In this document: piece by piece, positions 5,690 to 61,778 of the stretch
How positions within the stretch are numbered: the first letter of the stretch is position 1
Layout: each line of letters opens with the position of its first letter
NCBI GenBank assembly: GCA_947650365.1
Contig: CANTAL010000002.1
Location: 317,501 to 381,500 of the forward strand
Direction of reading: 5' to 3'
Source of the DNA: Chamaelirium japonicum
Taxonomy: Eukaryota > Streptophyta > Magnoliopsida > Liliales > Melanthiaceae
DNA length: 64,000 nt
Notes under the pieces: model-generated
What the model was told of the DNA's origin: nothing
Database searches by the model: none
Seen by the model: only the letters and a program-made list of their open reading frames with translations
Position numbers and translations under genes: made by a program

Positions 5690-6523
5690 GGAGAGATCCG
5701 ACGGTGGATATCCATCCGATCGAACGATCGCATAACAGTTGTAATATTTTAAATTTTTATAAAGAAAAATATAAATTATTTTTAAAGCAAAAAAATTCAG
5801 GTATGCCTTATCTTCCTTCTTTACTTTCTATTATTTAATTAATTTAATTAGTTTAATAAATTAAATTTTTAAATAATTAAATAAATATTTAATTATCTAT
5901 ATAATGAAATAACTAAATAATTTTATTAATTAATTTATTATTTAAATATTAAAATAAATAAATATTTAATTATTATTTAAAATAATATTAAATTATTTAA
6001 AAAAATATTTTATTATCTATATATTCAAATAATTACATAATAATTTATTTTAATTATTATTTGGTTAATTATAAAATTATTTAATAATTAAATTATTTAT
6101 TTGATTAATTAAATTATCTATTTAATATATTTCTATACTAAATAAGTTTTTAAATATTTAAATAATTAACTAATTATTTAATTATTTTATAATAAAATAA
6201 TATTTTAAGAAATTTTTAATAAAATAAATTAATAAAGTAATTATATAATTAAATAAATATTTTTTTCTTTAATAATTTAATAGTTACCTAATTTAATTAT
6301 TTTATAATATAATAATAATAAATAAATAAAATAATAAATTTAATTAAATAAATAGATAATTAAATAATTAAAAGTAATTAATTATTTTACTTAAATATTA
6401 ATTATTATATTATTTAAATTATTAAATTATTTAATAATATAATAAATGATTAATTTAATTAAAAAATTTATAGTAATACTACTATGATAATTATAATAAT
6501 ATTGAGATGATACTATTGAGAAG
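5690..6523 (-). repeat. AT-rich core module of the array family (minus orientation)
   Basis: A long AT-rich stretch lies between two fixed borders. One border carries GATCCGACGGTGGAT and the near-palindrome CGATCGAACGATCG. The other carries the complement of GTATCATCTCAA next to the GAGAAGTGGAG motif. Orientation is set by the TATA-to-primer-site direction of the family. The inverted partner in the right arm is 61,056-61,778. I see no coding capacity. Confidence 0.75.
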
Positions 6524-7216
6524 TGGAGTTTTGAAATTTAGATTCCTTTTTACTTCACAACTATACCCGTGACCAATGGACTGGAGCATGACTTCTTCTC
6601 TCTTTATTTATCTCTCCATTCTTTTCTCTCTTCTTCTGTTTATTCTGTGGAGTTTTGGAATTTAGATTCTTTCTTACTTTACACTTATACGTGTGGCCAA
6701 TGGATTGGAGTAGGACTTCTTCTCTTTTCTCTTTTCGTTTATCTCTTCATTCTCTTCTCTCTTCTTCTCTGCTCTATCTTCGTTTCTCTCTCCGTTTTCT
6801 TATGACTGGTCGGCTGGGCTCGACATATTCATACTGATAATATATTGTGAGATGGGAGAATGAGAGTGCAGTCAAATGTGCCCCACTCTAAAGGGGTCGT
6901 ATATTATTTATAGGGTAAGTTTACTTAGGGATTAAGCAATCTATAGGAAACCCTATTCTATGGGAGAAGAGAGAAGAGAACGGAGAGATTTAATTATATT
7001 ATTGAGAAGTAGAGTTTTGGAATTTAAATTCCTTCTTACTTTACACCTAAACCCCTTGTGAATGGGCTAGAACAGGACTTCTTCTCTCTTTGTTTATCTC
7101 TCCATTCTCTTCTCTCTTCTTCTCTCTCTTCTGTCTTCGTTTCTCTTTCCGTTTTCTTATGATTAGTCAGCTGGGCTCGACATATTCGTGCTGATAACGT
7201 GTTATGAGATGGGAGA

Positions 7217-7392
7217 ATGCTTATTAATTTTATTTATTTCAATTAATATTTTTTAAATATTATAAAGTATATTATTTCTTTAAATATTTAAATAGTATCA
7301 TCTCAGCGTTATTATTTAAATATTTAATTATAAAATATTGCAAAATTATTAAATAATTTATATAAATTTATGAGCATGAAAAATATTTTATT
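7217..7392 (-). repeat. Small AT-rich module (type 2), minus orientation
   Basis: An AT-rich piece of about 175 bp lies between the complement of the CTCCCATCTCA end and the AGAAATAAAATATTTTT border. The same module occurs at 11,641-11,817, 16,977-17,153, 40,659-40,836, 45,974-46,150 and 60,170-60,344. The copy at 60,170 is its mirror partner and is very similar base for base. Confidence 0.75.
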
Positions 7393-8476
7393 TCTCTTCT
7401 TCTCTCTTTTTTTATTTCTTCTTTCTCTTCTATTTTCTTCTCTCTCTTCTGTGTTCGTTTCTTGCTCTATTTTCTTTGACTAATCGGCTGGGCTCGATAT
7501 GTTCGTGCTATAACGTGTTGAGAGAGGAGAGAAGAGAGAAGAAGAGAGAAAAGAAATGAGAGATAAACGAAGAGACAAAAAGTCCTGCTCCTGTCCATTA
7601 GCCACGGGTATAGGTATAAAGTAAAAAGGAATCTAAATTTGAAAACTCCACTTCTCAATAATATAATTAAATCTCTCCGTTCTCTTCTCTCTTCTACTAT
7701 GGATTAGGGTTTCCTATAGATTGCTTAGTCCCAAAGTAAGCTTGCCCTTTAAATAATATACTACCCTTTTAGGGTGGGGAATATTTGACGGCTCTCTATT
7801 TCTCCCATTTCATAATACGTTATCAGCACGAATATATCGAGCCTAGCTGACAAGTCACAAGAAAATGGAGAGAGAAACGAAGACAGAACAGAGAGAAGAA
7901 GAGAGAAGAGAATAAACAGATAAATAAAGAGAGAAAAAAGAAGAAGCCCTACTCCAGTCCATTGACCACGGGTATAGGTGTGACGTAAGAAGGAATCTAA
8001 ATTCCAAAACTTCACTTCTCAATAATATAATTAAATTTCTCCATTTTTTTTTCTCTTCTCCTATAGATTAGGGTTTGATATAGATCGATTAGGCACTAAC
8101 TAAGCTACCCTATAAATAATATATGACCCATTTAGGGTGAGGCACGTTTGACAGTTCTCTCTTTCTCCCATCTCACAATACGTTATCAGCACGAATATGT
8201 TGAGCCCAGTTAACCAGTCGTAAGAAAACGAAGAGAGAAACGAAGACAGAAGAGACAGAAGAAGAGAGAAGAGAACAGAGAGATAAATGAAGAGAGAAAA
8301 GATAAGATGTCCTGCTCAATTCCATTGACCATGGGTATATGTGTGAAGTAAGAAGGAATCTATATTTCAAAACTCCACTTCTGTCTTCGTTTTTCTCTCC
8401 GTTTTCTTACAACTGGTCGGCTGGGATTGACATGTTCGTGCAGATAACGTGTTATGAAATAGGAAAAAGAAAGAAT

Positions 8477-8481
8477 CATCA
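8477..8481 (-). other. Empty target site corresponding to the copia insertion
   Basis: On the minus strand this reads TGATG, in a context matching both flanks of the copia element: the sequence before 49,320 on one side and the sequence after 59,333 on the other. Here the two flanks join directly with a single copy of TGATG. The rare variant CAGATAACG near 8,440 is mirrored by CGTTATCTG near 59,363, which confirms that the loci correspond. Confidence 0.8.
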
Positions 8482-11400
8482 AACATACTCCACCCTAAAG
8501 AGGTCGTATATTATTTATAGGGTAAGCTTACTTAGGGCCTAAGCAATCTATAGGAAACTATAATCCATGCGAGAAGAGAGAAGAGAATGGAGAGATTAAT
8601 TATATTATTGAGAAGTGGAGTTTTAGAATTTAGATTCCTTCTTACTTCACATCTATACCCGTGGCCAATGGACTGCATCAGGACTTTTCTCTTTTCTCTT
8701 CGTTTATCTCTCTGTCCTCTTCTCTCTTCTTCTCTTTCTTCTGTCATCGTTTCTATCTCCGTTTTCTTGTCTTGCCTGGGCACGATATGTTCGTGTTGAT
8801 AACGTGTTGTGAGATGGGAGAAAGAGAGGGCCATCACACATGCTGCACCCTAAAGAGGTCATATAAATATTGAGAAGTAAAGTTTTTGAATTTAGATTCC
8901 TTCTTACTTTACACCTATACCAGTGGCGAATAGACTGGAGTAAGACTTGTACTATCTTCTCTCTTCATTGATCTCTTTATTCTCTTCTCTCTTTTGTCTT
9001 CATTTCTCTCTTAATTAAATAATTATATTATTTAATTAAATTATTTAGGTAGAAGAAAGAACAGAACGGAGAGATAAACAAAGAGAGAAGGGGAGAGGAA
9101 GTCCTGCTCCAGTCTATTGAGCACGGGTATTGGTGTGGAGTAAGAAGGAATCTAAATTCCAAAACTCTACAGACGAGAGTAAAGAAGAGAGAAGAGAAGA
9201 AAGAAGATAGAGAAGAATAGAGAAGAGAACGTAAAGATAAACTAAAAGAGAAGATAGAAGAAGTCCTGCTCTAATCCATTGTCCACGGGTTTAAGTGTGA
9301 AGTAATAAGGAATCTAAATTCCAAAACTCCACAAAAGAAAAATAAGATAAGAACAGACTTCTATTTAATTATTAAAACTAGAGATATTTATATTATTTTA
9401 TTTAGGTTCTCTTCTCTTTTCTCACAACACATTATCAGTACAAACATGTCGAGCCCAACCAACTAGTCACAAGAAAACGGAGAAAGAAATAAATACAGAA
9501 GAGAGAGAAAAAGAAAAAAAAGAATGGAGAGATAAACGAAAAGATAATAGATTAGAAGTCCTACTCCAGTCCATTCGCCATGGGTATAGGTGTGAAGTAA
9601 AAAGGAATCTAAATTCTAAAACTCCACTTCTCAATATTTATATGACCCCTTTAGGGTGCGGCACGTGTGCCGGCTCTCTATTTCTCCCATCTCACAACAC
9701 GTTATCAACACGAACATGTCATGCCCAGCCGACCAGTCACAAAAAAACGAAGAGAGAAACAAAGATATAAGAGAGAAGAGGACAAAGAGATAAACAAAGA
9801 GACAATAAAGAAGAAGTCCTGCTCAAGTCCATTGGCCAAGGGTATAAGTGTGAAGTAAGAATGAATCTAAATTCAAAAACATCATAGAAGAAAGAGAAGA
9901 AGAGAAATGAAAACGAAGAGATAAATAAAGAGAGAAGATAGAAGAAGTCCTACTCTAATCCTTTGGCTATGGGTATAGGTGTGAAGTAAGAAGGAATCTA
10001 AATTCCAAAACTTCACTTCTGGCCTTGTTTCTCTCTCTGTTTTTTTACGACTAGTCAGCTGGGCTCGATATATTCGTGCTGATAACGTGTTGTGAGATAA
10101 GAGAAAGAAAGAGCGTCAAACATGCCCCACCCTAAAGGGGTTATAAATTATTTATTATTTATAGGGTAAGCATACTTAGGGCCTAAGCAATCTGTGGGAA
10201 ACCCTAATCTATGGGAAAAGAGAGAAGAGAATGTTGAGTGTAAATTATATTATTGAGAAGTGGAGTTTTGGAATTTAGATTACTTTTTACTTTACACCTA
10301 GACCCGTAGTTAATGGACTAGAGCAGGACTTCTTCTCTCTTCTGTCTTCATTTATCTCTCCGTTCTCTTCTTTCTTGTTCTTTCTCCTCTGCCTTTATTT
10401 CTCTCTCCGTTTTCTTGTGACTGATCGGCTGGGCTCGATATGTTCATGCTGATAACGTATTGTGAGATAGGAGAACGAGAGAGATGTTAAATATGCTCCA
10501 CCCTAAAGGGGTCATATAAATATTGACAAGTTGAGTATTGGAATTTATATTCCTTCTTACTTCACACCTATATCCGTAGCCAATGGCCTGGAGCAGGACT
10601 TCTTCTCTCTTCGTTTATCTTTTCATTCTCTTCTCTCTTTTTCTCTCTTCTGTCTTCGTTTCTCTCTTTGTTTTCTCTTCTCTCTTTTTCTCTCTCTTCT
10701 GTCTTCGTTTCTCTCTTCGTTTTCTTGTGACTGGTAGGCTGTGCTCGACATGTTCGTGCGGATAACATATTGTGAGGTAGAAGAAAGAAAGATCCATCAA
10801 ATATGCCCCACCCTAAAGGTGTCATATAAATATTGAGAAATAGAGTTTTGTAATTTAGATTCCTTCTTACTTTACACCTATACCCGTGGCTAATGGACTG
10901 GAGCAGGACTTTTTCCCTTTTCGTACTGATAATATTACTATAATTTTTTTAATTAAATTAATCATTTAATTAAAATAAAGAGAGTTTTGGAATTTACTAT
11001 GATAATCATAATAACATTGGGATGATACAATTGAGAAGTGGAGTTTTGGAATTTTGATTCCTTCTTACTTCACACCTATTCCCATGGTGAATATACTGGA
11101 CCATGACTTCTTATCTTTTCTCTCTTTATTTATCTCTCCGTTTTTTTCTTTTTTCTTCTCTCTTTTGTCTTCGTTTCCCTCTCCGTTTTCTTGCGACTGG
11201 TCAGATGGGCTCAACATGTTCATGCTGATAACGTATTGTGAGTTAGGAGAAATAAAGAGCCATCAAACATGCCCCACCCTAAAGGGGTCGTATATTATTT
11301 ATAGGGTATGCTTACTTAGGGCCATAGCAATCTATAGGAAACCCTAATCCATGGAAAAAGAAAGAAAAGAACGAAGAGATTTAATTATATTAGTGAGAAG

Positions 11401-11640
11401 TAGAGTTTTGGAATTTAGATTCCTTCTAACTTCATACCAATACCCTTGGTGAGTGGACTGGAGTAAGACTTCTCTCTTTATTTATCTCTCTGTTCTCTTT
11501 TTTCTTCTCACAACACATTATCAGCACGAACATATCGAGCCCAGCCGACCAGTCACAAGAAAACGGTGCGAGAAACGAAAACAGATGAGAGAGAAGAAGA
11601 GAGAAGAGAACATAGAGATAAATAAAGAGAGAAGAAGAGA

Positions 11641-11817
11641 AATAAAATATTTTTTATGCTCATAAATTTATATAAATTATTTAATAATTATGTAATGTTT
11701 TATAATTAAATATTTAAATAATAACATTGAGATGATACTATTTAAATATTTAAAGAAATGATATTCTTTATAATATTTGAAGAAATATTAATTAAAACAA
11801 ATAAAATAAATAAGTAA
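11641..11817 (+). repeat. Small AT-rich module (type 2), plus orientation
   Basis: This module of about 177 bp runs from ATAAAATATTTTTTATGCTC to the CTCCCATCTCACAACACG border. It takes the place normally held by the TATA-bearing part of the LTR-like module. Its direct duplicate is 16,977-17,153 and its mirror partner is 45,974-46,150. Confidence 0.75.
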
Positions 11818-12520
11818 TCTCCCATCTCACAACACGTTATCAGCATGAACATGTCGAGCCTAGTAGACCTGTCACCAAAAAACAAAGAGAGAAACGAAGA
11901 CAGAAGAGAGAGAAGGAGAGAGAAGAGAGCGGAGAGATAAACAAAGAGAGAAGAGAGAAGAAGTCCTGCTCCAGTCCATTCACCACGGGTATAGGTGTGA
12001 AGTAAAAAGGAATCTAAATTCCAAAACTCCACTTCTTAATAATATAATTAAATCTCTCCATTCTCTTCTCTCTTCTCCCATTGATTAGGGTTTCCTATAG
12101 ATTGCTTAGGCATTAAGTAAGCTTACTCTATAAATAATATATGACCCCTTTAGGGTGCGGCACATATAACGACTCTCTTTTTCTCCCATCACATAATATG
12201 TTATCATTATGAACATATCGAGCCCAGCCGACCAATTACAAGAAAATGGTGAGAGAAACGAAGACAGAAGAGAGAGAAGAAGAGAGAAGAGAACAAAGAG
12301 ATAAATAAAGAGAGAAAAGATAAGAAGTCCATTCGCCATAGGTATAGGTGTGAAGTAAGAAGGAATCTAAATTCTAAAATTCCATAGAAGAGAGAGAATA
12401 AAAGAGAAGAGAACGGAGTGATAAATAAAAAGAGAAGAGAAAATAAGTCCTTCTCAAGTCCATTGGCCACGGGTATAGGTGTGAAGTAAGAAAGAATCTA
12501 AATTTCAAAACTCCACTTCT

Positions 12521-13399
12521 CAATAGTATCATCTCAATATTATTATGATTATCATAGTAATGTTATTATAATTGTTTTTAATTAAATTAATTATTATTTA
12601 TTTATTAAATTATTTAAATAATTAAATAATTATGTTTTTATAAAATAATTAAATTTTTTAACTTATTTAATTATTTTAATTATTTATTTTTTATTTTCTT
12701 AAGAAATAATTAAATTATGTACTAATTTAATTATTTAAATTATTAAATAAAGAAATATTGATTTAATTATATAATTAATTAATTATTTTATTTTATTAGT
12801 TATTTCTTAAAATATTATTTTATTTTTAAATAGTTTATTAATTATTCAATTATTTAAACATTTAAAAACTCATTTAATGAAGAAATATATTAAATAGATT
12901 ATTTACTAAAATTAATAAATAATTTAAGTATTAAATAATTTTATAGTTAAATAAATAATAATAAAATAAATTATTATACAATTAAATATTTAAATAATTA
13001 TTTTATTAAATTATAAAATATATATTGAAATTAATAAAAAAATTAATTATATAATTAAGTAATAAAATTAAAAATAAATTATATAACTATTTACTTATTA
13101 TTTAAATAATTAGTTAATTATTTGAATATATAAATAATAAAATATTTTTTTAAATAACTTAGTATTTAAATAATTTAGGTATTTAATTATATAAATAATA
13201 AATATTTTTTTAATTATTTAATTATTTAATTTATTAAACTAATTAAATTAATTAAATAATAGGAAGTAAAAAAGGAAGATGAGGTAATTAGAATTTTTTA
13301 TTTAAAAAATAATTTATTTTTTTCTTTAAAAAAATTTAAAAAATTACAACTGTTCTAAGATCGTTCGATGGGATGGCTATCCACCGTCTGATCTCTCCC
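12521..13399 (+). repeat. AT-rich core module of the array family (plus orientation)
   Basis: This is a long AT-rich core, almost free of G and C. It begins CAATAGTATCATCTCAATAT and ends in the GATCGTTCGATGGGATGG and CCACCGTCTGATC border, which leads into CTCTCCCATGGATTA. The direct duplicate is 17,881-18,754 and the mirror partner is 44,311-45,262. The start carries TTATTATGATTATCATAG, also found inverted at the ends of related AT blocks. No ORF of note is present. Confidence 0.8.
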
Positions 13400-16300
13400 A
13401 TGGATTATGGTTTCCTATATATTGCTTTGGCCCTAAGTAAGGTTACCCTATAAATAATATACGACCCCTTTCCAATAGATTGCTTAGGCTCTAAGTAAGT
13501 TTACTCTATAATTAATATATGACCCTTTTAGGGTGGGACACGTTTGACGACTCTTTTTTTTTCCCATCTTATAACACGTTATCAGCACGAACATATAGAG
13601 CCCAGCTGACCAGTCATACAAAAACGGAGAGAGAAATGAAGACAAAAGAGAGAGAAGAAGAGAGAAGATAACGAAGAGATAAATAAAGAGAGAAAAGAAA
13701 AGAAGTCCTGCTCTAGTCCGTCGGCCATGGGGATAGGTGTGAAGTAAGATGGAATCTAAATTCCGAAACTCCACTTCTTAATAATATTATTAAATCTCTT
13801 CGTTCTCTTCTTTCTTTCACCTCACAATATTTTATCAGCACGAAAATATCGAGACCAACCGACTAGTCATAAGAAAACGGAGAGAGAAACGAAGATCGAA
13901 GAGAGAGAAGAAGAAAGAAGAGAACGGAGAGATAAACGAAGAGAAAAGAGAGAAGAAGTCCTGTTCCAGTCCATTGGCCATGCATATAGGTGTAAAGTAA
14001 GAAGGAATCTAAATTCCAAAACTCTACAGAAAAGAGAGAAGAAAAGAGAAGAGAACATAGAGATAAATAAAGAGAGAAGAGAGAAGAAGTCCTGCTCCAG
14101 TCCATTGTCCACGGGTATAGGTGTGAAGTAAGAAGGAATCTAAATTCCAAAACTCCACTTATATCTTTATATATCTCTCCATTATCTTTTCTCTTCTTTT
14201 CTCTCTTCTGTGTTGTTTTAGAAGTTAGATTCCTTCTTACTTCACACCTATACCCATGGCTAATGGACTGGAGTAGGACTTCTTCTCTCTTCTCTTTTTA
14301 TTTATCTCTATGTTCTATGTTCTCTCTTCTTCTTTCTCTTCTGTCTTAGTTTCTCCCTCAATTAAATAATTATATTATTTAATTAAATTATTTAGGTAGA
14401 AGAGAGAAGAAAACGGAGAGATAAACGAAGAGAGAAGGGCAAAAGTAGTCCTGCTCCAATCTATTGGCCAAGGGTATAGGTGTGAAGTAAGAAGGAATCT
14501 AAATTCCATAACTCCATAGAAGAGAGAGAAGAAGAGAGAAGAGAACGGAGAATAGAGAAGAGAGAGATGAATCGAGAAGAGAACGTAGAGATTAACGAAG
14601 GGAGAAGAGAGAAGAAGTATTGCTCCAGTCCATTGGCCACAGGTATAGGTGTGAAGTAATAAGAAATCTTAATTCCAAAACTCCACAGAAGAGAGAGAAG
14701 ATAAGGACAGACTTCTATTTAATTATTAAAACTAGAGAGATTTATATTAATTTATTTAGGTCCTTTTCTTTTTTCTCATAACATGTTATCAGCACGAACA
14801 TATTGAGCCCAACCGACTAGTCACAAGAAAACGGAGAGAGAAACAAAGATAAAAGAAAGAGAAAAAGATAGAAGAGAACGGAGAGATAAATGAAGAGAGA
14901 AGAGAAAAGAAGTCCTGCTCCAATCCATTGGCCATGGGTATAAGTATGAAGTAAGAAAGAATCTAAATTCCAAAACTTCACTTCTTAATATTTATACGAC
15001 CCATTTAGGGTAGGGCATGTATGATGGCTCTCTTTCTCCTATCTCATAACTCGCTATCAGCACAAATATATCAAACCCAGTCGACCAGTTATAAAAAAAT
15101 AGAGTGAGAAACGAAGACAGAAGAGAAAGAAGAGAGAAGTGAACAGAGAAATAAACAAAAAGAAAAGAGAGAAGAAGTCTTGCTCCAATCCATTGGCCAT
15201 GGGTATAGGTGTAAAGTAAGAAGGAATCTAAATTCAAAAACTCAATAGAAGAGAGAGAAGAAGAGGGAAGAGAATAGAGAGATAAATAAAGAGAGAAAAA
15301 AGAAGAAGTCCTACTCTAATCCAAAACTTCACTTATTTCTTCATTTCTTTCTCCGTTTTCTTACGACTGGTCAGCTGGGCTCGATATGTTCGTACTGATA
15401 ACATATTGTGAGATGGGAGAAAGAGAGAGCTATCAAACGTGCACCACCCTAAAGGGGTCGTATATTATTTATTATTTATAGAGTAAGCTTACTTAGGGTC
15501 TAAGCAGTCTATGGGAAACCCTAATCCATGGGAGAAGAGAGAAGAGAATGGAGAGATTTAATTATATTATTGAGAAGTGGAGTTTTGGAATTTAGATTAC
15601 TTCTTACTTCTTACCTAGACTTGTGGCCAATGAACTGTAGTAGGACTTTTTCTTTCTTTCTCTTCGTTTATCTCTCCGTTCTCTTATATCTTGTTCTCTT
15701 TCTTCTATTTTTTCTCTATCTTTGTTTTCTTATAACTGATCGGCTAGGCTCGACATGTTCATACTGATAACGTGTTGTGAGATAGGAGAAAGAGAGAGCC
15801 GTCAAATATGCACCACCCTAAAGGGGTCATATAAATATTGAGAAGTTAAGTTTTTAAATTTAAATTCTATCTTACTTCACACTTATACTCGTGGCTAATG
15901 GACTAGAGCAGGACTTCTTGTCTCTACGTTTATCTCTTCATTCTCTTCTATCTTCTTTTCTTTCTTTTGTCTTTGTTTCTCTCTCCATTTTCTCTTCTCT
16001 TTTCTTTTCTCTCTTCTGTATTTGTTTCTCTCTCCGTTTTCACTTGACTGGTAGGTTGGGCTCAATATGTTCATTTTGATAAAGTATTGTGAGGTGGAAG
16101 AAATAGAGAGCCATTAAACATGCCCCACCCTAAAGGGGTCATATAAATATTGAGAAGTAGAGTTTTGTAATTTAGATTCCTTCTTACTTCATACGTATAC
16201 CCATGGCCAATGGACTGGAGCAGGATTTCTTCTCTTTTCTTATTGATAATGTTACTATAATTTTTTTAATTAAATTAATTATTTAATTAAAATGAAGGGA

Positions 16301-17880: not shown

Positions 17881-18754
17881 CAATAATATTATGTAAACGT
17901 TATTATGATTATCATAGTAATATTACTAAATTTTTTTAATTAAATTAATAATTTATTTAATTATTTAATAATTTAATAATTTAAATAATTTTTTAATTAA
18001 TTTTTTTATAAAATAAATAATTTATTTACTTATTTAATTATATAGTTATTTAATTAAATTTATTTATTTATTTATTATTATGAAAATATTTAATATTTAA
18101 ATTAGGTAACTATTTAATTATTTAAATTATTAAATAAAAAAATAATAGTTTAATTATATACTTATTTAATTTATTTATTTTAATTGGTATTTTTAAAATA
18201 TTATTTTATTATTAAATGATTAAAAAATAAGTTTATTATTTAAATATTTAAAAACTTATTTAGTGAAGAAATATATTAAATATATTATTTACAAAAACAA
18301 ATAAATAATTTAATTATTAAATAATTTTATAGTTAAATAAATAATAATGAAATAAATTATTATGTAATTAAATAATTAAATCATTAAATAATTATTTTAT
18401 TAAATTATGAAATTTTAATTAAAATTAATAAAAAAAATTAATTATTTAATTAAGTAATAAAATAAAAAATAATTTAATAACTATTTACTTGTTATTTAAA
18501 TAATTAGTTAATTATTTAAATATATAAATAATAAAATATTTTTAAATAACTTAATATTTTTTAAAATAATCAAATAAATATTTATTTATTTTAATATTTA
18601 AATGAAAATAAATTATTTAAATAATTTAGTTATTTATTTATATGGATAAATAAATATTTTTTTAATTATATAATTATTTAATAATTTAATTTATTAAACT
18701 AATTAAATTAATTAAATAATAAGAAGTAAAGAAGGAAGATGAGGTACACCCGAT
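17881..18754 (+). repeat. AT-rich core module (plus orientation)
   Basis: AT-rich core with the same start as 12,521-13,399, ending in the AAGAAGGAAGATGAGGTACA border sequence and then running into an ATTTTAGATTCC family copy. The mirror partner is 38,971-39,951, which carries the same border in complement near 39,080. Confidence 0.75.
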
Positions 18755-25712: not shown

Positions 25713-25909
25713 TGTGACGACCAAGATCCAATAGGCCAATAGCCAAGAGCCAAGACTCCTGAGGCGAGAATGCCAAGATGGATGAGGTGAGGTGAGGTGA
25801 GGTGAGGTGTACAAGGCCATGAGTTAGCCCCACATCGCCTGGAGAGAAGGAGATCCTGAGCTACTTATATAATTTCCCCTCCCAAACATAGAAGACGCGT
25901 TTTAAAACC

Positions 25910-26010
25910 GTGCGCCGCTACGGAATTCGTAAGAACTCCGTAGTTAAGCATGCTCGGGCGAGAGTAGTACCAGGATGGGTGACCTCCTGGGAAGTTCTCG
26001 TGCAGGCATG
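25910..26010 (+). repeat. 5S rRNA-like domain in Cassandra LTR 1
   Basis: The domain resembles plant 5S rRNA from GAACTCCGTAGTTAAGC through GGGCGAGAGTAGTACCAGG to GATGGGTGACCTCCTGGG. This covers the internal pol III promoter (box A, intermediate element, box C). Equivalent domains lie at 26,316-26,417, 26,733-26,833, 31,510-31,610, 31,933-32,033, 32,355-32,453 and 32,776-32,875. It belongs to the element and is not a ribosomal gene: the 5' part of the molecule does not match 5S, and the context is an LTR. Confidence 0.9.
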
Positions 26011-49324: not shown

Positions 49325-51462
49325 TGTTAGGATTGATGTGTTCTAAGCTTGTAAAACTTTATGTTTTGGTCTAATAAAGATTGATAGTTATTAATATATG
49401 AGATGCATATAGGTGCGTAACATAGTTACGTGTTCTTTTGAGAACAGAGAGCCATGGTTATATGGTAGTCCACTGAGTTGAAGACTGAGTGGATTGGTCC
49501 CATATAACCTAAATAAGTTCGCAGCTATGATCAGGTTGGTCGCCTCATCATGTTAAGCTATTGGCGATGACAGTTCATGGGATGTCTTCACCATGGTCAT
49601 CACCAGGCACAGTGTCTGTGGCTGAACGGAACTAACACGGTGTACAGATCAGTGAGCAGACACTGGTACACTAAGCCGTGTTTCTGCTTAGGGTAAAATG
49701 GTCCTAAACCCTGAGGAACCACGACTGATGGACTAACCAGTTGCGTGGTGCTTTGGCGCACCAATGTGTGAGGGTCCATATGCAGTGATCCAAAACCACG
49801 GTGTACTGGGTTACCCGGCTGGCGTTGCATTAGCGTGTCACTCCTGCAGGCCATCCACACCCCTGATGGGAGGTGCGTTCCTTGGTGTGACTTACACTGT
49901 ACCAAACCCAGGCCTGGTGGTCATCAGTTTGACTGTTGACCGGGTTCGATTACTCGATGGGGTAATCAGAGGTACGATGTATAGGTCAACCTGGAAGGAA
50001 CCAAGTCATATGATCATTCGAGTCTGACGGTAGTCTTCACCGCTCGAAGTGAATCATGGCATCAAGTGGAGGGACAGGGGGTTTACTACTACTAAGCGGA
50101 GAGCAGGGGTATGATGGAGAATATAGTAAGTCTGGGTGAATTGGAGTGCAGCCTGCGTCGCACTCTGGGTGGCTACGCAGGTTAACTCGAGCTCAGAGGA
50201 TCGATGGTACACTCGGGTAGTGTGTCGATCGAGCTTGAGTTGGAAGCCATGAACCCCGGTCCCTGATGGTTCCACCTTATCAACATTATGTACGGTTCTT
50301 GAACCGTCTCCTCGGAACACCATAAGCATGAGGAAGAAAGAAGTATACGCTCCGTGTGTGCTTGGCACTAGAGCATGGTAGATGCGTAACTACATACGAG
50401 TACCAAGGGTTGAGCCCGAGACTAGTGCAGAGTCGTATGTAGTAATCCCTAGCCATAAGTGAACTTCGCTGCATAGGTGCGATGCACCGGGGTATGTTGC
50501 GAGTTGACTAGTTGACTTTGCTAGAGGCACCCTCCGATGGCCTCAGTTAATAGTAAGTAACTAGTAGATATCACTTAAGTAATGGCCGCTAGGTATCGCA
50601 CGCTAGAAATGGTCAAAATGAGGCGTCGGGGCGTTTTGGTAAAAACCTCACTCTGCCGGACCTCACTGTTGGCCGATCCTAGTGGTGGGACACCTCACCA
50701 GGGCCGACCCTATGATGTAGGGATGAGAATCCCTCATCTATAGGGCCGGCCATATAGATAGGGATGGGGCGATAAATCGGTTAAGATCGAGCCCTAAAAA
50801 GTGGGAAAACGGATAAATACGCGGAGAGATAAAAAGGAGATAATGGAGAGATAATGAGAGGGAGTTATTATCCCCTTGGATCCTTATCCAAGGGGGGATG
50901 GCCGGCCCTATAAAGGGAGCTATGGGCGCCGGCCCCATGTGATGCAAAAAAAATCCGAACCCCCTCCTCTCTCTAATCTCTCTAGTTCTCTCCCTAATCT
51001 CTCTCCGTTTCCCGCTTGCTACTTCGTCTTCCTCGCGTGGAGTTCTGAAGAAGGAGAAGGGTCGTTCTTCGAAGGCACTCAGAGATCCGAGAGCGACGTT
51101 CCGTGCATCGTGTGAGATCGGGTGAACAAGAAGGCAACATCTCCATTCGTACCGTCGGCATCTTCGCGAACGATCTTCCGTCTCCATCGACAAAGAAGAT
51201 AATTCTCCACGGTTAAAAGATCCGTACGAAAGGTATGTGTAATCTAACATGTAGATCTAGCGAGCATTATGATTTGCATCCATGCTAGTTAATCATTACG
51301 CTAGATTGCCGTTAGGGGTTTTCGATTCTCGTGCATACACATGCACACATATGTAGATTAGTTTCTATGAAAATTTAAATAGTGTAACGTGCACCATGAA
51401 CGGTCTTTCGACCGCCAAAATCGTTTCCGCTGTGAGCCTCTGACCCGGATTAGATTCCAACA
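49325..51462 (+). repeat. 5' LTR of the copia element
   Basis: The 2,138-bp LTR runs TGTTAGGATTG to TTCCAACA. It has a TATA box at 50,909-50,914 and a pyrimidine-rich CTCTCTAATC region after it. The ORFs inside it on either strand (up to 170 codons) occur in both LTRs and show nothing that I recognise, so I do not treat them as genes. Confidence 0.95.
50909..50914 (+). promoter_or_regulatory. TATA box in the copia 5' LTR
   Basis: TATAAA lies between GGCCGGCCC and a downstream GCGCCGGCC, so the box sits in the loop of a GC-rich inverted repeat. The copy in the 3' LTR is at 58,775-58,780. Transcription would start some 30 bases downstream. Confidence 0.6.
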
Positions 51463-51464
51463 AT

Positions 51465-51477
51465 TGGTATCATAGCC
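51465..51477 (+). other. Primer-binding site of the copia element
   Basis: TGGTATCATAGCC begins two bases after the 5' LTR. It resembles the complement of the 3' end of initiator tRNA-Met, the usual copia primer. Confidence 0.75.
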
Positions 51478-53209
51478 GCATTAGTGGTGTGCGTTTCACG
51501 TTTTTTCATGAAACTAACATGTGTGCGCATGATGAATGCGTGAGATCATCGGGGTTCTTACGCTTAGATCATGCATATGTATAGATTGTGCTTGTTCTAT
51601 TAATCATTCTTGCAGGGCGCCGCTATAAAAAATCTAGATCTATGATTTGTGTTTGCTACCGGGGGTCGGACCCCGAGATAGCAAATGTCTGGATTTGCTT
51701 TCTATGTGTGGATTTGTAATTGAGCCGTAGATTGGGCGAGTGATGGGGGTTGACCATCCTCGGTTTCCCATGGCTTTTTCCTAGGTGTGTTTTCTTTTCT
51801 TTCTAGGAAATTGTGTACGACCGAGCACTTGCTCGTAGCGTACTAGACTTTTTCGGTTACAGATCGAGAAGAAAGATGTGCCAAAGAAATCCACCATCGG
51901 GAGCGGAAGCGGAACCCTGGAGGAAGAAGACGATCCGGCAAAGTGTTCGCGAGAGCGACGGAGGAGCCGGACCGAAGAACCTTGCGAAGAAAGCTAGAGG
52001 CCTGCGCTGTGCTAATTAGGTTCAGGGGTCGGACCCTGAACTTAATTCAGTTTTAATGGTTGCTTTCTTTAATTAGTTCTTTAAGCTTCATATCGAACCC
52101 CGATGAGATAATGTGATTATCAGTTTTCAGAGGGATGCCTTTCCCCTCCGGTCCAAGCGACTGTTTGAGGTTAGGATCCCGCTAGATGACGCCTATTATT
52201 TAGTTGACTTTTGATGTTAGTGGGATCCCATCACATATGGTTATGCCACCATTAGGAGAGCACCCGACTAGTCGGGTGTGCCTATTTGGCCAGCATCGAA
52301 ATCAAAGATGAGATGGAGATCCATTGAACATCAATTGTCAAATCTATAAGCGAGGCGCCATGACTAGTGGGAGTCCTTTCCAGTGAGTCTGACTCTAGGA
52401 TTAGCTCCAGAGCATTAGCGTGATAACCAATTTTGCAAAGCATCGATACTCTTGGAATATGTAATGTGACCCTTGAATGGAGAAATCCACTTGAGGCAGG
52501 GACTATGATATTCCGAGAGTGATTAATGCTAGGCGAAAGGTTTAAACACTAGTGGGAGCATGGTGTGACCAGGGTCTAGTATTTAGGAGGTCGCTACCTT
52601 TGCATTTGCATAAATTCATACTCGCAAAATAACCCTCAGATTTATAAGGGATGCAAGAGACGACTTTTAAAAGATCCTCTGGCCTCCACGGCCAGTCGTT
52701 TTGTGTTTGGGTGGGGATGCATAACTTCACACCCCCTAGGGTGGGAGCTGTGTGTTTCCATGCCAAATTACTTAATGACCTCCCTGTGGATATGGCGATT
52801 ACGGGGCCAGGAGAGAAGGGCTTTTCATCCCACCCTAGTGGGGGCCGCATGAACTCCCGTGTCGTAATTGCTTAGGCTCGTGGGTAAGCATCCTAAGTAC
52901 ACGTGAGGTATTCGTTGCGAAGACAACGGTGATCACGTGGTACTGGCCGAAAGATAACCATGGTCCATCACAGCCCTTAGTTGGCAGATTTGGATAGGGT
53001 CAAGGAAAAGGCCCGTGTAAGCGGATTGACGCTGTATGATGCCCCCTAGGGCAGGTACAGCCGATTCCGAGATCTTACATACATGGTTAATTAATCCATA
53101 GAGATGGCTTCGCTTGAGGGTAGCGTCGACATATGGATATAATTAGCTTGTTTTAAAAATCCATAAAATAAGTTTTTATGCATACTCATTATTCAATCTT
53201 TATTTTCAG
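51478..53209 (+). other. Long untranslated leader of the copia element
   Basis: About 1.7 kb lies between the primer site and the gag start. It holds only short ORFs and no domain that I recognise. Its last bases, CTTTATTTTCAG, are an excellent 3' splice-site match placed directly before the ATG of the polyprotein. A donor match AAAG/GTATGT lies in the LTR at 51,229-51,238. Confidence 0.6.
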
Positions 53210-56200
53210 ATGACTAAGTTAGACCCCCTGTCCGCCATCCTAAATGACCACAAACTTACCGGTCCCAACTATGAGGATTGGAAGCGCAACCTGTACCTGG
53301 TCCTAAGGATTGGTAAACATATGTCAGCCCTTAATGACCCTGAGCCAGATTTGCCAGGATCCAATGCCACAGAGGCACAGTTAAAGGCATTCACTGACTG
53401 GAAGGAATCTAATGAGATATGTAAATGCTATATAATAGCATCCTTGCAAACAACTCTGCAGAAGCAAGTCGAGGAGATGCCCGATGCTTCTGACATGATG
53501 TTGTACTTGAAGGAGATGTTTGAAGGTCACAATCGCGTTACGCGATACCTTACCATCAAGAAACTCGTCGGCACTAAGATGTCCAATGGGACGCTGGTTC
53601 GGGAACACATGATGAAAATGTTTGGGTTCCAGAACGAACTAGATACCATGGACATTGTGCTAGAAGGCGAGGTGATGACAGACATCTTCCTCTCGTCACT
53701 GTCTGGAGCCTTTGAAGGCTTTGTCACCAACTTTAATTTGAACAAGTTGGCTATGACAAATGCAGAGCTTCTAGGAGCTCTCCAAGCAGCTGAGGATGGC
53801 TTCAAGCAGAAGGGCGAAGCATTTCACGTGCAACGCAGATCCTTCAAGAAGCCTGGTAAACCTCAGGGCAAGAAACATAAAAGGAAACCTAAGTCACTGC
53901 CTGTGCAGGACTCTGCTGGAGCCTCTGGGTCTGGAGAATCAAAGAAACCGGGCACGAAGTGCTTCCGGTGTGGCCAGAAGGGTCATTGGAAGAAGGACTG
54001 CAAGAAGCCTCAGAATGCTGGTGAAGGTAATCTACAACTCTTAGTTGTTGAATCATTTCTTTCAAGTAATAGTACTTTTGCTAGTTGGATTGTGGATTCT
54101 GGATCCACTAACCATGCCTGTAACTCTCTTCAGGGGTTTCGGGAAAGCAGAAGATTGCTTGATGGAGAGGTGACCCTGAGCATGGGAACTGAGGCCGTGG
54201 CTGCTGCTGAAGCTATTGGAGATGTTAATCTTAGTTTTTCGAATAATAAGACTTTGACTCTTAGAGATGTCTTTTATGTACCGTCCTTGCGACGTAACTT
54301 AATTTCTGTTTCTTCTTTAGTTAATGAAGGTTATTCAGTTTATTTTGATGCTTCTGGTGTGTCATTTAAACTGAATGGAACTTTTATAATAAGAGGAATG
54401 GTTCAGAATCATCTCTATGTTGTAAGTCCTAAATTTGAAAAGGATAACATAATAACTTCAGTATTTAATGTTAATTCATCTAAGCGTAAGAATCCTTCGG
54501 AAAATTTAACCCACCTGTGGCACTTACGACTTGGGCATATTGCCTTAGATAGGATCCATAGAATGGTGAAGGCCGGGCTTCTGGAAACAGATCCTACGGA
54601 GATCCTTCCCACCTGTGAATCCTGCCTGGAAGGCAAGATGACCAAGAGGTCCTTTAAAGGCAAAGGAGTAAGAGCTACTGAGGTGTTAGAGTTAATCCAT
54701 TCGGATGTGTGTGGACCCATGAACGTCAAGGCGATAGGAGGCCATGAGTATTTCATCACATTCATTGATGATTACTCAAGATATGGTTACATTTACCTGA
54801 TGCATCGGAAGTCGGAATCCTTTGACATGTTCAAAGAGTTCAGGGCTGAAGTAGAAAAGCAGACAGGTAAATATATAAAAACCCTTCGATCAAATCGAGG
54901 AGGTGAATACCTATCTGACGAGTTCCTAGGGTATTTGGTGGAGCATGGGATAAAATCCCAGTTAACTGCTCCAGGTACCCCACAACAGAATGGAGTTTCC
55001 GAGAGAAGGAATCGAACCTTGTTGGACATGGTTCGTAGCATGATGAGTTACGCCAGTTTACCAATGACCTTTTGGGGATATGCCCTACAAACAGCAGTTT
55101 ATATTCTGAATCACGTTCCGTCTAAGTCAGTACCTCTGACCCCTAGAGAACTGTGGTCAAAGCGAAAGCCATTGATACAGCATTTCAGAATATGGGGATG
55201 CCCTGCACATGTGCGAAGGGATAAGAGGGAAAAGATGGAATCTAAAACCAGAGTATGCTTATTTGTAGGGTATTCCAAGGAGACCAAAGGTGGTCTATTT
55301 TATGATCCTGAGGAAAAGAAAGTGATCGTTTCTACGAACGCCTATTTCCTAGAACAGGATTATATTGTGGACCACAAACCTACTAGTAAGGTAGTTCTGG
55401 ATGAACTGCTGGGTACTAGTTCAGATAGCGCATCCAAAAGCATAGTGGGAGCTGACATTACAGATAATAATATACCAGATACTGTAGAACCTGTTAATCC
55501 TGTAACACCACCACCACCTCGTCGCAGTGGGAGAAACATTAGAGCTCCTGACAGATACTATGGAGAAACCTTATTGGTTGATCCAGAGGGTCAGGAGGAT
55601 GACCCACTGAGCTACGATGAGGCAGTGGGAGCTTCTGACAGCTCTGACTGGCAAAAGGCTATGGAGGTAGAAATTGAATCAATGTCCCATAACGCAGTCT
55701 GGACTCTTGTTACACCATCATCCAATATTAAACCTATTGGGTGTAAGTGGGTGTATAAGAAGAAGAGAGGATCCGATGGTACAATAGAGACTTATAAAGC
55801 TAGATTAGTTGCCAAGGGTTACACCCAGAGAGAAGGGATCGACTTTGACGAAACCTTCTCGCCGGTAGCTATGATAAAGTCTATTCGGATCCTCCTATCC
55901 ATTGCAGCCCATTATGACTGGGAGATCTGGCAAATGGATGTCAAGACAGCATTCCTTAATGGAAATTTGGAAGAAGACATTTATATGATTCAGCCACCAG
56001 GCTTTGAGTCAGAGGGTCAGGAACATCTAGTTTGCAAGTTGCAGAAGTCCATTTATGGACTAAAGCAAGCATCTAGAAGTTGGAACATCCGTTTTGATCA
56101 GGCAATCCAGTCATATGGATTTACTCAAAACGAGGATGAACCATGTGTATACAAGAGGACTGATAAGACCACAGTAGTATATTTAATACTTTACGTAGAC

Positions 56201-57175
56201 GATATTCTGCTCATTGGAAATGATGTAGGAACATTGTCAACGGTAAAGGTCTGGTTGTCAACACAGTTCGATATGAAAGACCTAGGTGAAGCGAGTTATG
56301 TTTTGGGGATCAAGGTAACACGTGATCGCCAGAACATGATTCTCTCGCTGTCACAGGCTGCGTATATAGATAAGGTTATGGCTAGATTTGACATGCAAAA
56401 CTCCAAGAAGGGTTTTGTGCAATTTAGACATGGCATAAAACTGTCTAAGGATCAATGTCCTAAGACACCTGAGGAGAGAGCAGAAATGCAGAAGATACCT
56501 TATGCTTCGGCATTAGGTAGTCTAATGTATGCTATGCATTGTACAAGGCCTGATATCTGTTTTGCAGTAGGAATGATGGGTCGGTTTCAGTCAAATCCGG
56601 GTCCAGATCACTGGACAGCTGTGAAGTGTATACTCAAGTACCTTCGTAGAACAAGGGACTATGAGTTGGTTTACACTGGACAAGAACTGACGCCGATTGG
56701 ATATACAGATTCTGACTTTATATCAGATTTAGAATCCAAAAAGTCGACATCAGGTTTTGTGTTTGTGCTAGGAGGAGGAGCGGTTAGTTGGCAGAGTGTG
56801 AAGCAGAAATGCATCGCAGACTCTACCACAGAGGCTGAGTACGTTGAAGCGTGCGAGGCAGCCAAAGAGGCGGTATGGCTCAAGAAATTCCTTACGGATT
56901 TGGGATGTGTACCAGAGGCCCAGTTACCTATTGTGCTTTACTGCGACAATAGTGGGGCGGTAGCACAAGCTAAGGAGCCAAGACATCACCAAAAGGGGAA
57001 GCACATCGAGCGCAAGTTCCACTTGATTCGGCAGTTTCAAAAGCAAGGGCGAGTAGCAGTGACGCAGATTGCATCTACAGATAATATTGCTGATCCTTTC
57101 ACAAAGGCAATACCTACCAAAGCATTCGAGCGACATGTGGACGCGATGAGAGTCAAAACCATTTTGCTTCGCTAG
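53210..57175 (+). CDS. Copia Gag-Pol polyprotein
   Basis: A single frame of 1,321 codons. It is the capsid and enzyme precursor of the retrotransposon, assembled into cytoplasmic virus-like particles in which the RNA is copied to DNA. Gag occupies roughly residues 1-230 and matches the UBN2/copia gag type ([13 protein letters not shown] near the start). A CCHC zinc knuckle follows at 251-264, and the aspartic protease has DSGS at 296-299. The GAG-pre-integrase zinc-binding stretch (HLWHLRLGH) is near 434 and the integrase core at about 490-610. Reverse transcriptase spans about 829-1,070 with YVDD at 995-998, and RNase H about 1,160-1,290, opening with YTDSD. The ATG at 53,210 is the first in frame and follows directly on a splice-acceptor-like sequence. 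Total length is normal for copia polyproteins. Confidence 0.95.
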
Positions 57176-57178
57176 ACC

Positions 57179-57189
57179 AAGTGGGAGAT
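57179..57189 (+). other. Polypurine tract of the copia element
   Basis: AAGTGGGAGAT lies directly before the 3' LTR and just after the polyprotein stop. It is the usual start site for plus-strand synthesis. Confidence 0.75.
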
Positions 57190-59328
57190 TGTTAGGATTG
57201 ATGTGTTCTAAGCTTGTAAAACTTTATGTTTTGGTCTAATAAAGATTGATAGTTATTAATATATGAGATGCATATAGGTGCGTAACATAGTTACGTGTTC
57301 TTTTGAGAACAGAGAGCCATGGTTATATGGTAGTCCACTGAGTTGAAGACTGAGTGGATTGGTCCCATATAACCTAAATAAGTTCGTAGCTATGATCAGG
57401 TTGGTCGCCTCATCATCTTAAGCTGTTGGCGATGACAGTTCATGGGATGTCTTCACCATGGTCATCACTAGGCACAGTGTCTGTGGCTGAACGGAACTAA
57501 CACGGTGTACAGATCAGTGAGCAGACACTGGTACACTAAGCCGTGTTTCTGCTTAGGATCAAACGGTCCTAAACCCTGAGGAACCACGACTGATGGACTA
57601 ACCAGTTTTGTGGTACTTTGGCGCACCAATGTGTGAGGGTCCATATGCAGTGATCCAAAACCACGGTGTACTGGGTTACCCGGCTGGCGTTGCATTAGCG
57701 TGTCACTCCTGCAGGCCATCCACACCCCTGATGGGAGGTGCGTTCCTTGGTGTGACTTACACTGTACCAAACCCAGGCCTGGTGGTCATCAGTTTGACTG
57801 TTGACCGGGTTCGATTACTCGACGGGGTAATCAGAAGTACGATATATAGGTCAACCTGGAAGGAACCAAGTCATATGATCATTCGAGTCTGACGGTAGTC
57901 TTCACCGCTCGAAGTGAATCATGGCATCAAGTGGAGGGACAGCGGGTTTACTACTACTAAGCGGAGAGCAGGGGTATGATGGAGAACATAGTAAGTCTGG
58001 GTGAATTGGAGTGCAGCCTGCGTCGCACTCTGGGTGGCTACGCAGGTTAACTCGAGCTCAGAGGATCGATGGTACACTCGGGTAGTGTGTCGATCGAGCT
58101 TGAGTTGGAAGCCATGAACCCCGGTCCCTGATGATTCCACCTTATCAACATTATGTACGGTTCTTGAACCGTCTCCTCGGAACACCATAAGCATGAGGAA
58201 GAAAGAAGTATACGCTCCGTGTGTGCTTGGCACTAGAGCACGGTAGATGCGTAACTACATACGAGTACTAAGGGTTGAGCCCGAGACTAGTGCAGAGTCG
58301 TATGTAGTAATCCCTAGCCATAAGTGAACTTCGCTGCATAGGTGCGATGCACCGGGGTATGTTGCGAGTTGACTAGTTGACTTTGCTAGAGGCACCCTCC
58401 GGTGGCCTCAGTTAATAGTAAGTAACTAGTAGATATCACTTATGTAATGGCCGCTAGGTATCGCACGCTAGAAATGGTCAAAATGAGGCGTCGGGGCGTT
58501 TTGGTAAAAACCTCACTCTGCCGGACCTCACTGTTGGCCGATCCTAGTGGTGGGACACCTCACCAGGGCCGACCCTATGATGTAGGGATGAGAATCCCTC
58601 ATCTATAGGGCCGGCCATATAGATAGGGATGGGGCGATAAATCGGTTAAGATCGAGCCCTAAAAAAGTGGGAAAACGGATAAATACGCGGAGAGATAAAA
58701 AGGAGATAATGGAGAGATAATGAGAGGGAGTTATTATCCCCTTGGATCCTTATCCAAGGGGGGATGGCCGGCCCTATAAAGGGAGCTATGGGCGCCGGCC
58801 CCATGTGATGCAAAAAGAATCCGAACCCCCTCCTCTCTCTAATCTCTCTAGTTCTCTCCCTAATCTCTCTCCGTTTCCCGCTTGCTACTTCGTCTTCCTC
58901 GCGTGGAGTTCTGAAGAAGGAGAAGGGTCGTTCTTCGGAGGCACTCAGAGATCCGAGAGCGACGTTCCGTGCATCGTGTGAGATCGGGTGAACAAGAAGG
59001 CAACATCTCCATTCGTACCGTCGGTATCTTCGCGAACGATCTTCCGTCTCCATCGACAAAGAAGACAATTCTCCACGGTTAAAAGATCCGTACGAAAGGT
59101 ATGTGTAATCTAACATGTAGATCTAGCGATCATTATGATTTGCATCCATGCTAGTTAATCATTACGCTAGATTGTCGTTAGGGGTTTTCGATTCTCGTGC
59201 ATACACATGCACACATATGTAGATTAGTTTCTATGAAAATTTAAATAGTGTAACGTGCACCATGAACGGTCTTTCGACCGCCAAAATCGTTTCCGCTGCG
59301 AGCCTCTGACCCGGATTAGATTCCAACA
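57190..59328 (+). repeat. 3' LTR of the copia element
   Basis: 2,139 bp, with the same ends as the 5' LTR, followed by the second TGATG. The differences from the 5' LTR are scattered substitutions and about one single-base length change by eye. Confidence 0.95.
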
Positions 59329-60521
59329 TGATGACTCTCTCTTTCTCCCATTTCATAACACGTTATCTGCACGAACATGTCAAGCCCAGCCGACTAGTCG
59401 TAAGAAAACAGAGAGAAAAACAAAGACAGAAGTGGAGTTTTGAAATGTAGATTCCTTCTTACTTCACACCTATACCCATGGTCAATGGAATAGAGCATGA
59501 CATCTTATCTCTTCTCTCTTTATTTATCTCTCTGTTCTCTTCTCTCTTCTTCTGTCTCTTCTGTCTTCGTTTTTCTCTTCGTTTTCTTGCGACTGGTTGG
59601 CTGGGCTCAACATATTCGTGCTGATAACGTGTTATGAGATGAGAGAAAGAGAGAACCGTCAAACATGCCCTACCCTAAAGGGTCGTATATTATTTATAGG
59701 GTAGCTTAGTTAGTGCCTAATCGATAATTTCATGCTGATAATCTGTTATAAAATAGGAGAAATAGAGAGCCGTGAAATATTCCCCACCCTAATAGGGTCA
59801 TATATTATTTAAAGGGTAAGCTTACTTTGGGCCTAAGCAATCTATGGGAAACCCTAATCCATAGTAGAAGAGAGAAGAGAACGGAGAGATTTAATTATAT
59901 TATTGAGAAGTGGAGTTTTGAAATTTAGATTCCTTTTTACTTTATACCTATACCCGTGGCTAATGGACTGGAGCAGGACTTCTTGTCTCTTCGTTTATCT
60001 CTCATTTCTTTTCTCTCTTCTTCTCTTTTCTCTTTTCTCTCAACATGTTATAGGACGAACATGTCGAGCCCAGCCGACCAGTCAAAAGAAAATAAAGCGA
60101 GAAATGAACACAGAAGAGAGAGAAGAAGAGAGAAGAGAAAGAAGAAATAAATAAAGAGAGAAGAAGAGAAATAAAATATTTTTCATGCTCATAAATTTAT
60201 ATAAATTATTTAATAATTTTGCAATATTTTATAATTAAATATTTAAATAATAACATTGAGATGATACTATTTAAATATTTAAAGAAATAATATACTTTAT
60301 AATATTTAAAAAATATTAATTAAAATTAATAAAATTAATAAGCATTCTCCCATCTCATAACATGTTATCAGCACGAATATGTCGAGCCCAGCCGACCAGT
60401 CATAAGAAAACGGAGAGAGAAACGAAGACAGAAGAAAGAGTAGAAGAGAGAAGAGAATGGAGAGATAAACAAAGAGAGAAGAGAGAAGAAGTCCTATTCT
60501 AGTCCATTCGCCAGGGGTTTA
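59329..60521. repeat. Array block beyond the copia element
   Basis: Family copies continue from the point interrupted by copia and match 7.0-8.48 kb in reverse complement. A minus-oriented primer-site-like motif lies at 59,616-59,629. The type 2 AT module is at 60,170-60,344. No gene. Confidence 0.8.
60170..60344 (+). repeat. Small AT-rich module (type 2), plus orientation
   Basis: Mirror partner of 7,217-7,392, nearly identical including the GCAATATTTTATAATTAAAT stretch. Confidence 0.8.
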
Positions 60522-60781
60522 TGTTGGAATTGGATCTGCTTATCAGAGTCGCAGCGGAAGCAAAAGATAGATCCGAAGATCATACGGTGTATGTTTTATT
60601 ATAATTAATTTTACAAAATAATCTACATGCAAATCTATGATCTTAGCATATGTGCGGATACCCTAGAGACACACTACAATCTACGGAAGACATACATGCA
60701 TCTAGTTAGTTGTTTAGAGTCATCATACCTTTTGGATCTATGATCCAGAGAGAACGGAATGATGATGAACCGCACGTGAAC
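60522..60781 (-). mobile_element. Fragment of another copia-type LTR (3' end), minus strand
   Basis: About 260 bp that do not belong to the array. Read on the minus strand they end GCTTCCGCTGCGACTCTG..ATTCCAACA, closely resembling the end of the 49-59 kb copia LTR (TTTCCGCTGYGAGCCTCTG..ATTCCAACA). They also share an AAAGGTATG donor-like site. The rest differs, so this is a related but distinct family. Only one end is recognisable, so it is an old fragment. In the left arm the matching place (about 6,800-7,040) has family sequence instead. Confidence 0.7.
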
Positions 60782-61055
60782 GAGAGAGAAACGAAGACAG
60801 AACAGAGAAGAAGAGAGATGAGAATGAGAATATAAACGAAAAGAGAAGAGAGAAGAGGTCCTACTCCAATCCATTGGCCGCAGGTATAAGTGTGAAGTAA
60901 GAAAAAATCTAAATTTTAGAACTCCACAGAAGAAAGAGAAGAAAAGAGAAGAGAACAGAGAGATAAATGAAGAGAGAAGAAGTTATGCTCCAGTCCATTG
61001 GCCACGGGTATAGGTGTGAAGTAAAAAGGAATCTAAATTTCAAAACTTCACTTCT
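60782..61055. repeat. Array block between LTR fragment and AT core
   Basis: Ordinary family copies in plus orientation (purine tract, then LTR-like modules with GGCCACGGGTATAGGTGTGA), mirroring about 6.52-6.80 kb. No gene. Confidence 0.8.
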
Positions 61056-61778
61056 CAATAGTATCATCTCAACACTATTATAATTATCATAGTAATATTA
61101 CTATAATTTTTTTAATTAAATAAATCATTTATTAAATTATTAAATAATTTAATAATTTAAATAATATAATAATTAAGATTTAAGTAAAATAATATATTTA
61201 TTTAATTATTTAATTATCTATTTATCTAATTAAATTTATTATTTTATTTATTTATTATTATTATATTATAAAATAATTAGATTAGGTAACTATTAAATTA
61301 TTTAAATTATTAAATAAAAAAATAATTATTTAATTCTATAATTACTTTATTAATTTATTTTATTAGATATTTCTTAAAATATTATTTTATTATAAAATAA
61401 TTAAATAATTAGTCAATTATTTAAATATTTAAAAACTTATTTAGTATACAAATATATTAAATAGATTATTTAAATAATAAAATAAATTATTAATTATTAA
61501 ATAATTTTATAATTAACTAAATAATAATTAAAATAAATTATTATGTAAATATTTGAATATATAGATAATAAAATATTTTTTAAAATAATTTAATATTATT
61601 TTAAATAATCAATTGAATATTTATTTATTTTAATATTTAAATAATAAATAAATTATTTAAATTATTTAAATATTTAATTATATCGATAATTAAATATTTA
61701 TTCAATTATTTAAAAATTTAATTTATTAAACTAATTAGATTAATTAAATAAAAGAAAGTAAAGAAGGAAGATGAGGCA
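61056..61778 (+). repeat. AT-rich core module (plus orientation), interrupted by gypsy
   Basis: AT-rich core starting CAATAGTATCATCTCAACAC and ending AAGGAAGATGAGGCA where the gypsy LTR begins. It mirrors 5,804-6,523, where the same border reads uninterrupted in complement. Confidence 0.8.

Follow-up and report, generated by a model that had tools for sequence, protein, structure and literature searches.

A stretch of 64,000 nucleotides from Chamaelirium japonicum (Melanthiaceae; GenBank assembly GCA_947650365.1, contig CANTAL010000002.1, positions 317,501 to 381,500 of the forward strand), hereafter the window, contains a giant imperfect palindrome whose two arms pair in reverse complement along a single continuous diagonal. 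The palindrome is probably (at roughly 80%) an inverted segmental duplication within a silent, repeat-rich, satellite-like block. Most likely it represents a commonplace remnant of events in repeat-rich chromatin and not a functional device.

Geometry and divergence of the arms

The window was compared with itself by blastn, and diagonals were drawn from the best 80 inverted and the best 50 direct matches. Six pieces make up the inverted diagonal: left 5803–6792 pairs with right 61779–60782 (92.4% identity), 7045–7840 with 60524–59721 (93.0%), 8084–8481 with 59725–59329 (93.0%), 8477–18757 with 49324–39075 (90.9%; 14,501 bits), 18752–20007 with 38566–37303 (91.0%), and 20001–24298 with 37214–32920 (91.8%). 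The third and fourth pieces are separated in the right arm by a 10,004-bp Copia retrotransposon at 49325–59328. The left arm (5803–24298, forward strand) is a collinear inverted match of 18,496 bp to the right arm, which lies on the reverse strand and measures 18,856 bp with the Copia excluded. The inner part of the right arm (32920–49324) matches 8477–24298, while its outer part, past the Copia (59329–61779), matches 5803–8481. The initial annotation of this DNA had described such a palindrome, with arms of roughly 18.5 and 18.9 kb around an 8.6-kb spacer, and both the structure and its dimensions are confirmed here.

In a global alignment the arms are 92.1% identical across 18,079 aligned positions. 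When the stretch opposite a foreign block is excluded, identity is 92.9% across 17,829 aligned positions, with a Kimura two-parameter distance (K2P) of 0.075. Five gaps in the alignment reach at least 30 bp. One of these, at left position 18752, measures 514 bp and most likely reflects a loss from the left arm, as the right-arm sequence found there recurs in other copies of a 5.3-kb unit described below. The foreign block, 257 bp in the right arm (60525–60781), replaces a module segment (63% identity in the arm alignment window), and in the self-comparison of the window no match overlaps it by more than 60 bp. On the reverse strand the block terminates in ..CCAATTCCAACA, and it is perhaps a fragment of another long terminal repeat (LTR) element.

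Inverted arms are a classic pattern of misassembly, so that a folded read or mis-joined haplotypes might be suspected. The arms carry 7% substitutions along their length (1,262 differences in the 17,829 aligned positions) and 57 indel events, and the Copia, with its clean target duplication, sits in one arm only. A folded read, which the initial annotation had already dismissed on account of the divergence, is excluded because the arms have diverged and only one holds the Copia; an assembly artefact of either kind is the least credible origin among those considered here.

The Copia element (forward strand) has LTRs at 49325–51462 and 57190–59328 that are 98.7% identical, and the target-site duplication TGATG stands on each side. 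Its open reading frame (ORF) at 53210–57175, a gag-pol frame of 1,321 amino acids, contains RVT_2, rve, and copia-type gag domains. The K2P between the LTRs is 0.013, against 0.075 between the arms, and the palindrome is, judged by sequence divergence, older than the Copia. Antisense frames of 170 and 156 amino acids (50738–51250 and 58646–59116, reverse strand) lie in the LTRs and may have arisen by chance.

Similarity beyond the family background

As one repeat family fills the window, a control was needed, in which 150-bp tiles were assigned their best match outside the tile itself. On the opposite strand, the mirror position gave the best match for 109 of the 123 left-arm tiles and 114 of the 125 right-arm tiles, and the median best identity was 92.6% in each arm. 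Elsewhere best matches were weaker: the median was 88.5% for the left flank (n = 38; maximum 94.1%) and 86.8% for the spacer (n = 39; maximum 96.6%, with tiles that take in part of the second Cassandra-like array). Apart from the mirror, the best match of a left-arm tile was 87.3% identical at the median and 94.5% at most. Among the matches listed, long off-diagonal matches are mostly 77–86% identical, and the largest inverted ones are 80–85% identical and score no more than 4,961 bits. The next best inverted diagonals, stretches of 4.5–5 kb with 80–84% identity, are shifted by roughly one 5.3-kb unit.

Single tiles overlap the background, and the decisive point is collinearity across 18 kb. 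The arms are two collinear inverted copies far closer to each other than to the background, as an inverted segmental duplication would show. Similarity at the family level alone, named in the initial annotation as the outcome that would speak against a palindrome, was not found, given the continuous inverted diagonal and the tiles whose best match is the mirror. The accompanying claim that the pairs have rare variants in common is addressed only through these best-match tiles.

Differences between the arms are distributed nearly at random, with near-uniform divergence. The longest exact run measures 102 bp, a length attained in 104 of 200 shuffles (mean 105). The standard deviation (SD) of identity in 200-column windows is 0.0206, compared to a shuffled mean of 0.0181 and a shuffled maximum of 0.0211. 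The arms share no long identical tract and hence show no sign of recent gene conversion. With 92.9% identity and a longest run as in the shuffles, the arms do not resemble a conversion-maintained palindrome of the sex-chromosome type; a single duplication without recent conversion fits the pattern of differences. C/T-type differences affect 161 of 566 CpG sites and 619 of 4,984 other C sites, an excess at CpG as would be expected of methylated, silent DNA.

Assuming 1.3e-8 substitutions per site and year, the split of the arms would date to roughly 2.9 million years ago; at 6.5e-9 it would date to roughly 5.8 million. The Copia, at the assumed rate of 1.3e-8, would be roughly 0.5 million years old.

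The satellite-like array and its older layers

The repetitive DNA forms a complex array of satellite-like type. Profile searches started from a single site located 155 copies of a B module (82 on the forward strand), 121 of a P module (56), 76 of a T module (34), and 166 of a pyrimidine-rich C module that overlaps B (89). Modules, AT-rich blocks, and labelled elements together cover 87% of 1–49324. With C omitted, the string of modules in the left arm follows that of the reverse-complemented right arm along most of its length, and the strings differ locally, near gaps and the foreign block and at a few weak modules. The T consensus includes CCCTATAAATAATATACGACC and the P consensus includes CTCACAACACGTTATCAGCACGA, motifs that we take to represent the TATA region, the LTR end, and the primer-site region of LTR retrotransposons. 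Read as LTR-retrotransposon parts, these motifs suggest that pieces of a retrotransposon leader may make up the array. Exact consensus patterns gave 0 matches in viral contigs and 0 in bacterial and archaeal genomes, in keeping with plant DNA.

Modules are assembled into a 5.3-kb higher-order unit that occurs twice in the left arm on the forward strand, at 8882–13286 (mirrored by 43944–48917) and at 14215–18746 (mirrored by 38584–43510). The two copies are direct repeats with 82.1% identity in the left arm and 81.9% in the right arm, and, at about 82% similarity within each arm, they predate the palindrome. Parts of the unit lie inverted further out, where 5617–8031 matches 13471–11022 (80.5%) and 2187–3664 matches 11379–9886 (82.7%), indicating that the block changed orientation more than once. 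Weaker, older inverted copies (~80–85%) are nested within and around the arms, the palindrome, at 93%, being the most recent large step observed in the block.

Calling of AT-rich DNA (at least 92% AT per 100 bp) returned 14 segments. Six are blocks of 700–858 bp, three per arm (5813–6512, 12527–13282, 17880–18737, 39095–39934, 44430–45255, and 61066–61765), and the remaining eight are shorter. ARAGORN, run with the bacterial code, found no tRNA genes in the window.

Outer ends of the palindrome

The right arm ends at the start of a Gypsy-type LTR retrotransposon (61779–64000, forward strand), one end of which lies inside the window and whose second LTR lies outside. Its TG..CA LTR (~61779–62468) begins with TGTGGGTGC and ends in ...CCCGACA, followed by TTGGCGCCG, which resembles a primer-binding site (PBS). 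A gag ORF (Pfam Retrotrans_gag) runs from 62628 and is still open at the window end. Position 61779 is the first base of the LTR and pairs with the left arm by chance. The initial annotation had traced the palindrome to 61778; the arms do match over this span, but the point marks the start of the Gypsy-type LTR and is no demonstrated natural end.

The left flank (1–5802, forward strand) belongs to the same satellite family, and its mirror partner is absent from the window. Three family alignments pass straight through 5803: 5617–8031 aligns with 13471–11022 and with 44241–46777, and 5617–6466 with 38900–39783. From these alignments and the LTR at 61779, the palindrome is predicted to continue outside the window, with the flank probably mirrored beyond the Gypsy-type element, whose insertion most likely interrupted the right arm.

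Long inverted repeats composed of internal repeats are the hallmark of foldback elements. The arms have this composition, and a giant foldback-like transposon, with terminal inverted repeats composed of internal repeats, would be a further candidate; Tetris of Drosophila virilis ties foldbacks to satellites (PMC4079207). Such an origin is very improbable here. The left end at 5803 lies inside family sequence that runs outward, and the right end is the start of an LTR. Termini and a target-site duplication of its own were looked for and not found within the window, outside which the true ends may lie. Apart from the Copia and the Gypsy-type element, the window holds six ORFs of at least 120 amino acids, all within module DNA and only 121–146 amino acids long.

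The spacer

The 8.6-kb spacer (24299–32919) consists of arm modules and two Cassandra-like arrays. Its inverted matches, among the 30 best listed, are short, mostly 77–89% identical, and on no single diagonal. Array 1 (25711–26877, forward strand) is a tandem array with a 417-bp unit and three 5S-like copies, in which TGGTATCAGAGCC adjoins the LTR end. Array 2 (~31202–32920, forward strand, its start set by eye) has four 5S-like copies and a self-offset of 423 bp; its first LTR is interrupted, and the array adjoins the inner end of the right arm. Seven Rfam 5S_rRNA matches above the gathering score are spread over both arrays at a spacing of ~417–423 bp. A 5S-like sequence within an LTR, which characterizes Cassandra, is present in both arrays, while a PBS and a purine tract around a short internal domain were recognized by eye in array 1 only (..gttaca aaa tggtatcagagcc .. 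aaggggggtggat tgtgacg).

The arrays share the same orientation and are ~94–96% alike along long matches; no clear target-site duplication was seen by eye at either. Within the first LTR of array 2, an insertion of ~110 bp (~31380–31491) carries a GGTTCAAGTACCC stretch, which resembles an RNA polymerase III B box, and is possibly a short interspersed element.

Resumption of the arm match past the inner Cassandra-like array was considered and rejected: among the 30 best matches listed there are only scattered short matches on no single diagonal, with 78–88% identity for the portion on the left that precedes the first array. As the match is not resumed on the far side, the original centre of the palindrome is lost or rearranged.

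A possible hairpin source of small RNAs

A palindrome of this size might also act as a hairpin locus, a role that the initial annotation had raised. Read-through of both arms would yield a transcript that folds and is diced into 21–24-nt small interfering RNAs (siRNAs) silencing the parent retrotransposon family. The long self-complementarity of the arms is real, the T consensus contains the TATAAATA sequence, T modules occur in either orientation (34 of 76 forward), and the CpG-biased decay is compatible with methylation. A precedent exists in Arabidopsis IR71, a double-stranded RNA (dsRNA) of ~3 kb that is processed into siRNAs via DCL2, DCL3, and DCL4 (PMC12825306). Against these points, a single transcript would have to span ~56 kb, including the Copia and the two Cassandra-like arrays of the spacer. 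Nor does the pairing of the arms show any sign of preservation, as differences accrue almost as in shuffles. The hairpin locus is unlikely.

Local inverted pairs, defined by arms of at least 200 bp, at least 75% identity, and a loop of at most 1 kb, number 57 in 1–64000 (overlapping ones counted separately) and cover 47% of 1–49324. Inverted pairs in the window range from a few hundred bases to the 18.5-kb arms. The local pairs could yield dsRNA, for which they would be enough without the giant arms, and nothing in the sequence demands that the palindrome have a function. A broader proposal treats the whole block as a plant silencing cluster, in which nested inverted promoter and leader modules of several scales produce dsRNA that silences a live LTR family and the duplication of at least 18.5 kb is the latest large step of growth; this is more doubtful still. 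If small RNAs do arise here, the locus would offer a test of long inverted satellites feeding plant silencing. A role of the palindrome as a source of recombination, also raised in the initial annotation, is plausible, but the differences between the arms bear no trace of recent conversion.

Origin of the palindrome

An inverted segmental duplication accommodates these observations. To go by the order of identity classes, short modules, which may stem from the promoter and leader of an LTR retrotransposon, were first amplified in both orientations and then assembled into 5.3-kb units. One event subsequently duplicated at least 18.5 kb in reverse; the copying itself is observed, and its mechanism was most likely a template switch or the repair of a break between inverted copies. 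The arms then diverged through point mutation and small indels, with CpG changes in excess. The Copia and, most likely, the Gypsy-type element inserted in the right arm; the spacer holds the Cassandra-like arrays. The palindrome would have no selected function and would owe its persistence to the silence of the block.

Several points weigh against this reconstruction. The mirror is not the best match for 14 of 123 left-arm and 11 of 125 right-arm tiles (one of the latter has no match at all), and single non-mirror matches reach 94.5%. Identity along the arms is slightly uneven, with a spread close to the shuffled maximum. Both original breakpoints are obscured, since the outer end is a Gypsy-type LTR and the inner end a rearranged Cassandra-like array, and no diagnostic junction marks the mechanism of duplication. 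All of the evidence comes from this one window.

As an inverted duplication, the palindrome renders the growth of a satellite block by inversion and tandem copying visible at base level. It also provides a relative clock, which runs from modules to 5.3-kb units, the palindrome, and the Copia.

Comparison with known systems

Tandem Cassandra elements, terminal-repeat retrotransposons in miniature, have been described (PMC7215508), and both spacer arrays resemble them in their 5S-bearing tandem LTRs and short internal domain. In the present window Cassandra is only a passenger of the palindrome. The arrays, together with features of the retrotransposons, speak for a plant origin of the DNA.

The willow palindromes W.P1 and W.P2, on the W sex chromosome, are likewise plant structures with inverted arms (20-kb sequence there), a spacer, and LTR retrotransposons; W.P1 spans ~42.7 kb with a 2.6-kb spacer (PMC7023750). 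Their arms are on average more than 99% identical (96–99% for arms 3b/4b), in contrast to the 93% found here. The willow palindromes also contain genes and evidence of gene conversion (PMC7023750), whereas no host gene and no sign of recent conversion were recognized in the present arms.

Arabidopsis IR71, too, is a long inverted repeat of a plant. Its siRNA output has been demonstrated from ~3 kb of dsRNA (PMC12825306), while the palindrome described here is about six times longer and interrupted.

Tetris of Drosophila virilis and the present structure are both modular, with inverted repeats built of internal repeats and satellite-like arrays, and foldbacks of the Tetris kind can give rise to satellites (PMC4079207). 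The transposon termini and target duplication that define a mobile foldback were not found in the window, however, and the present modules look retrotransposon-derived.

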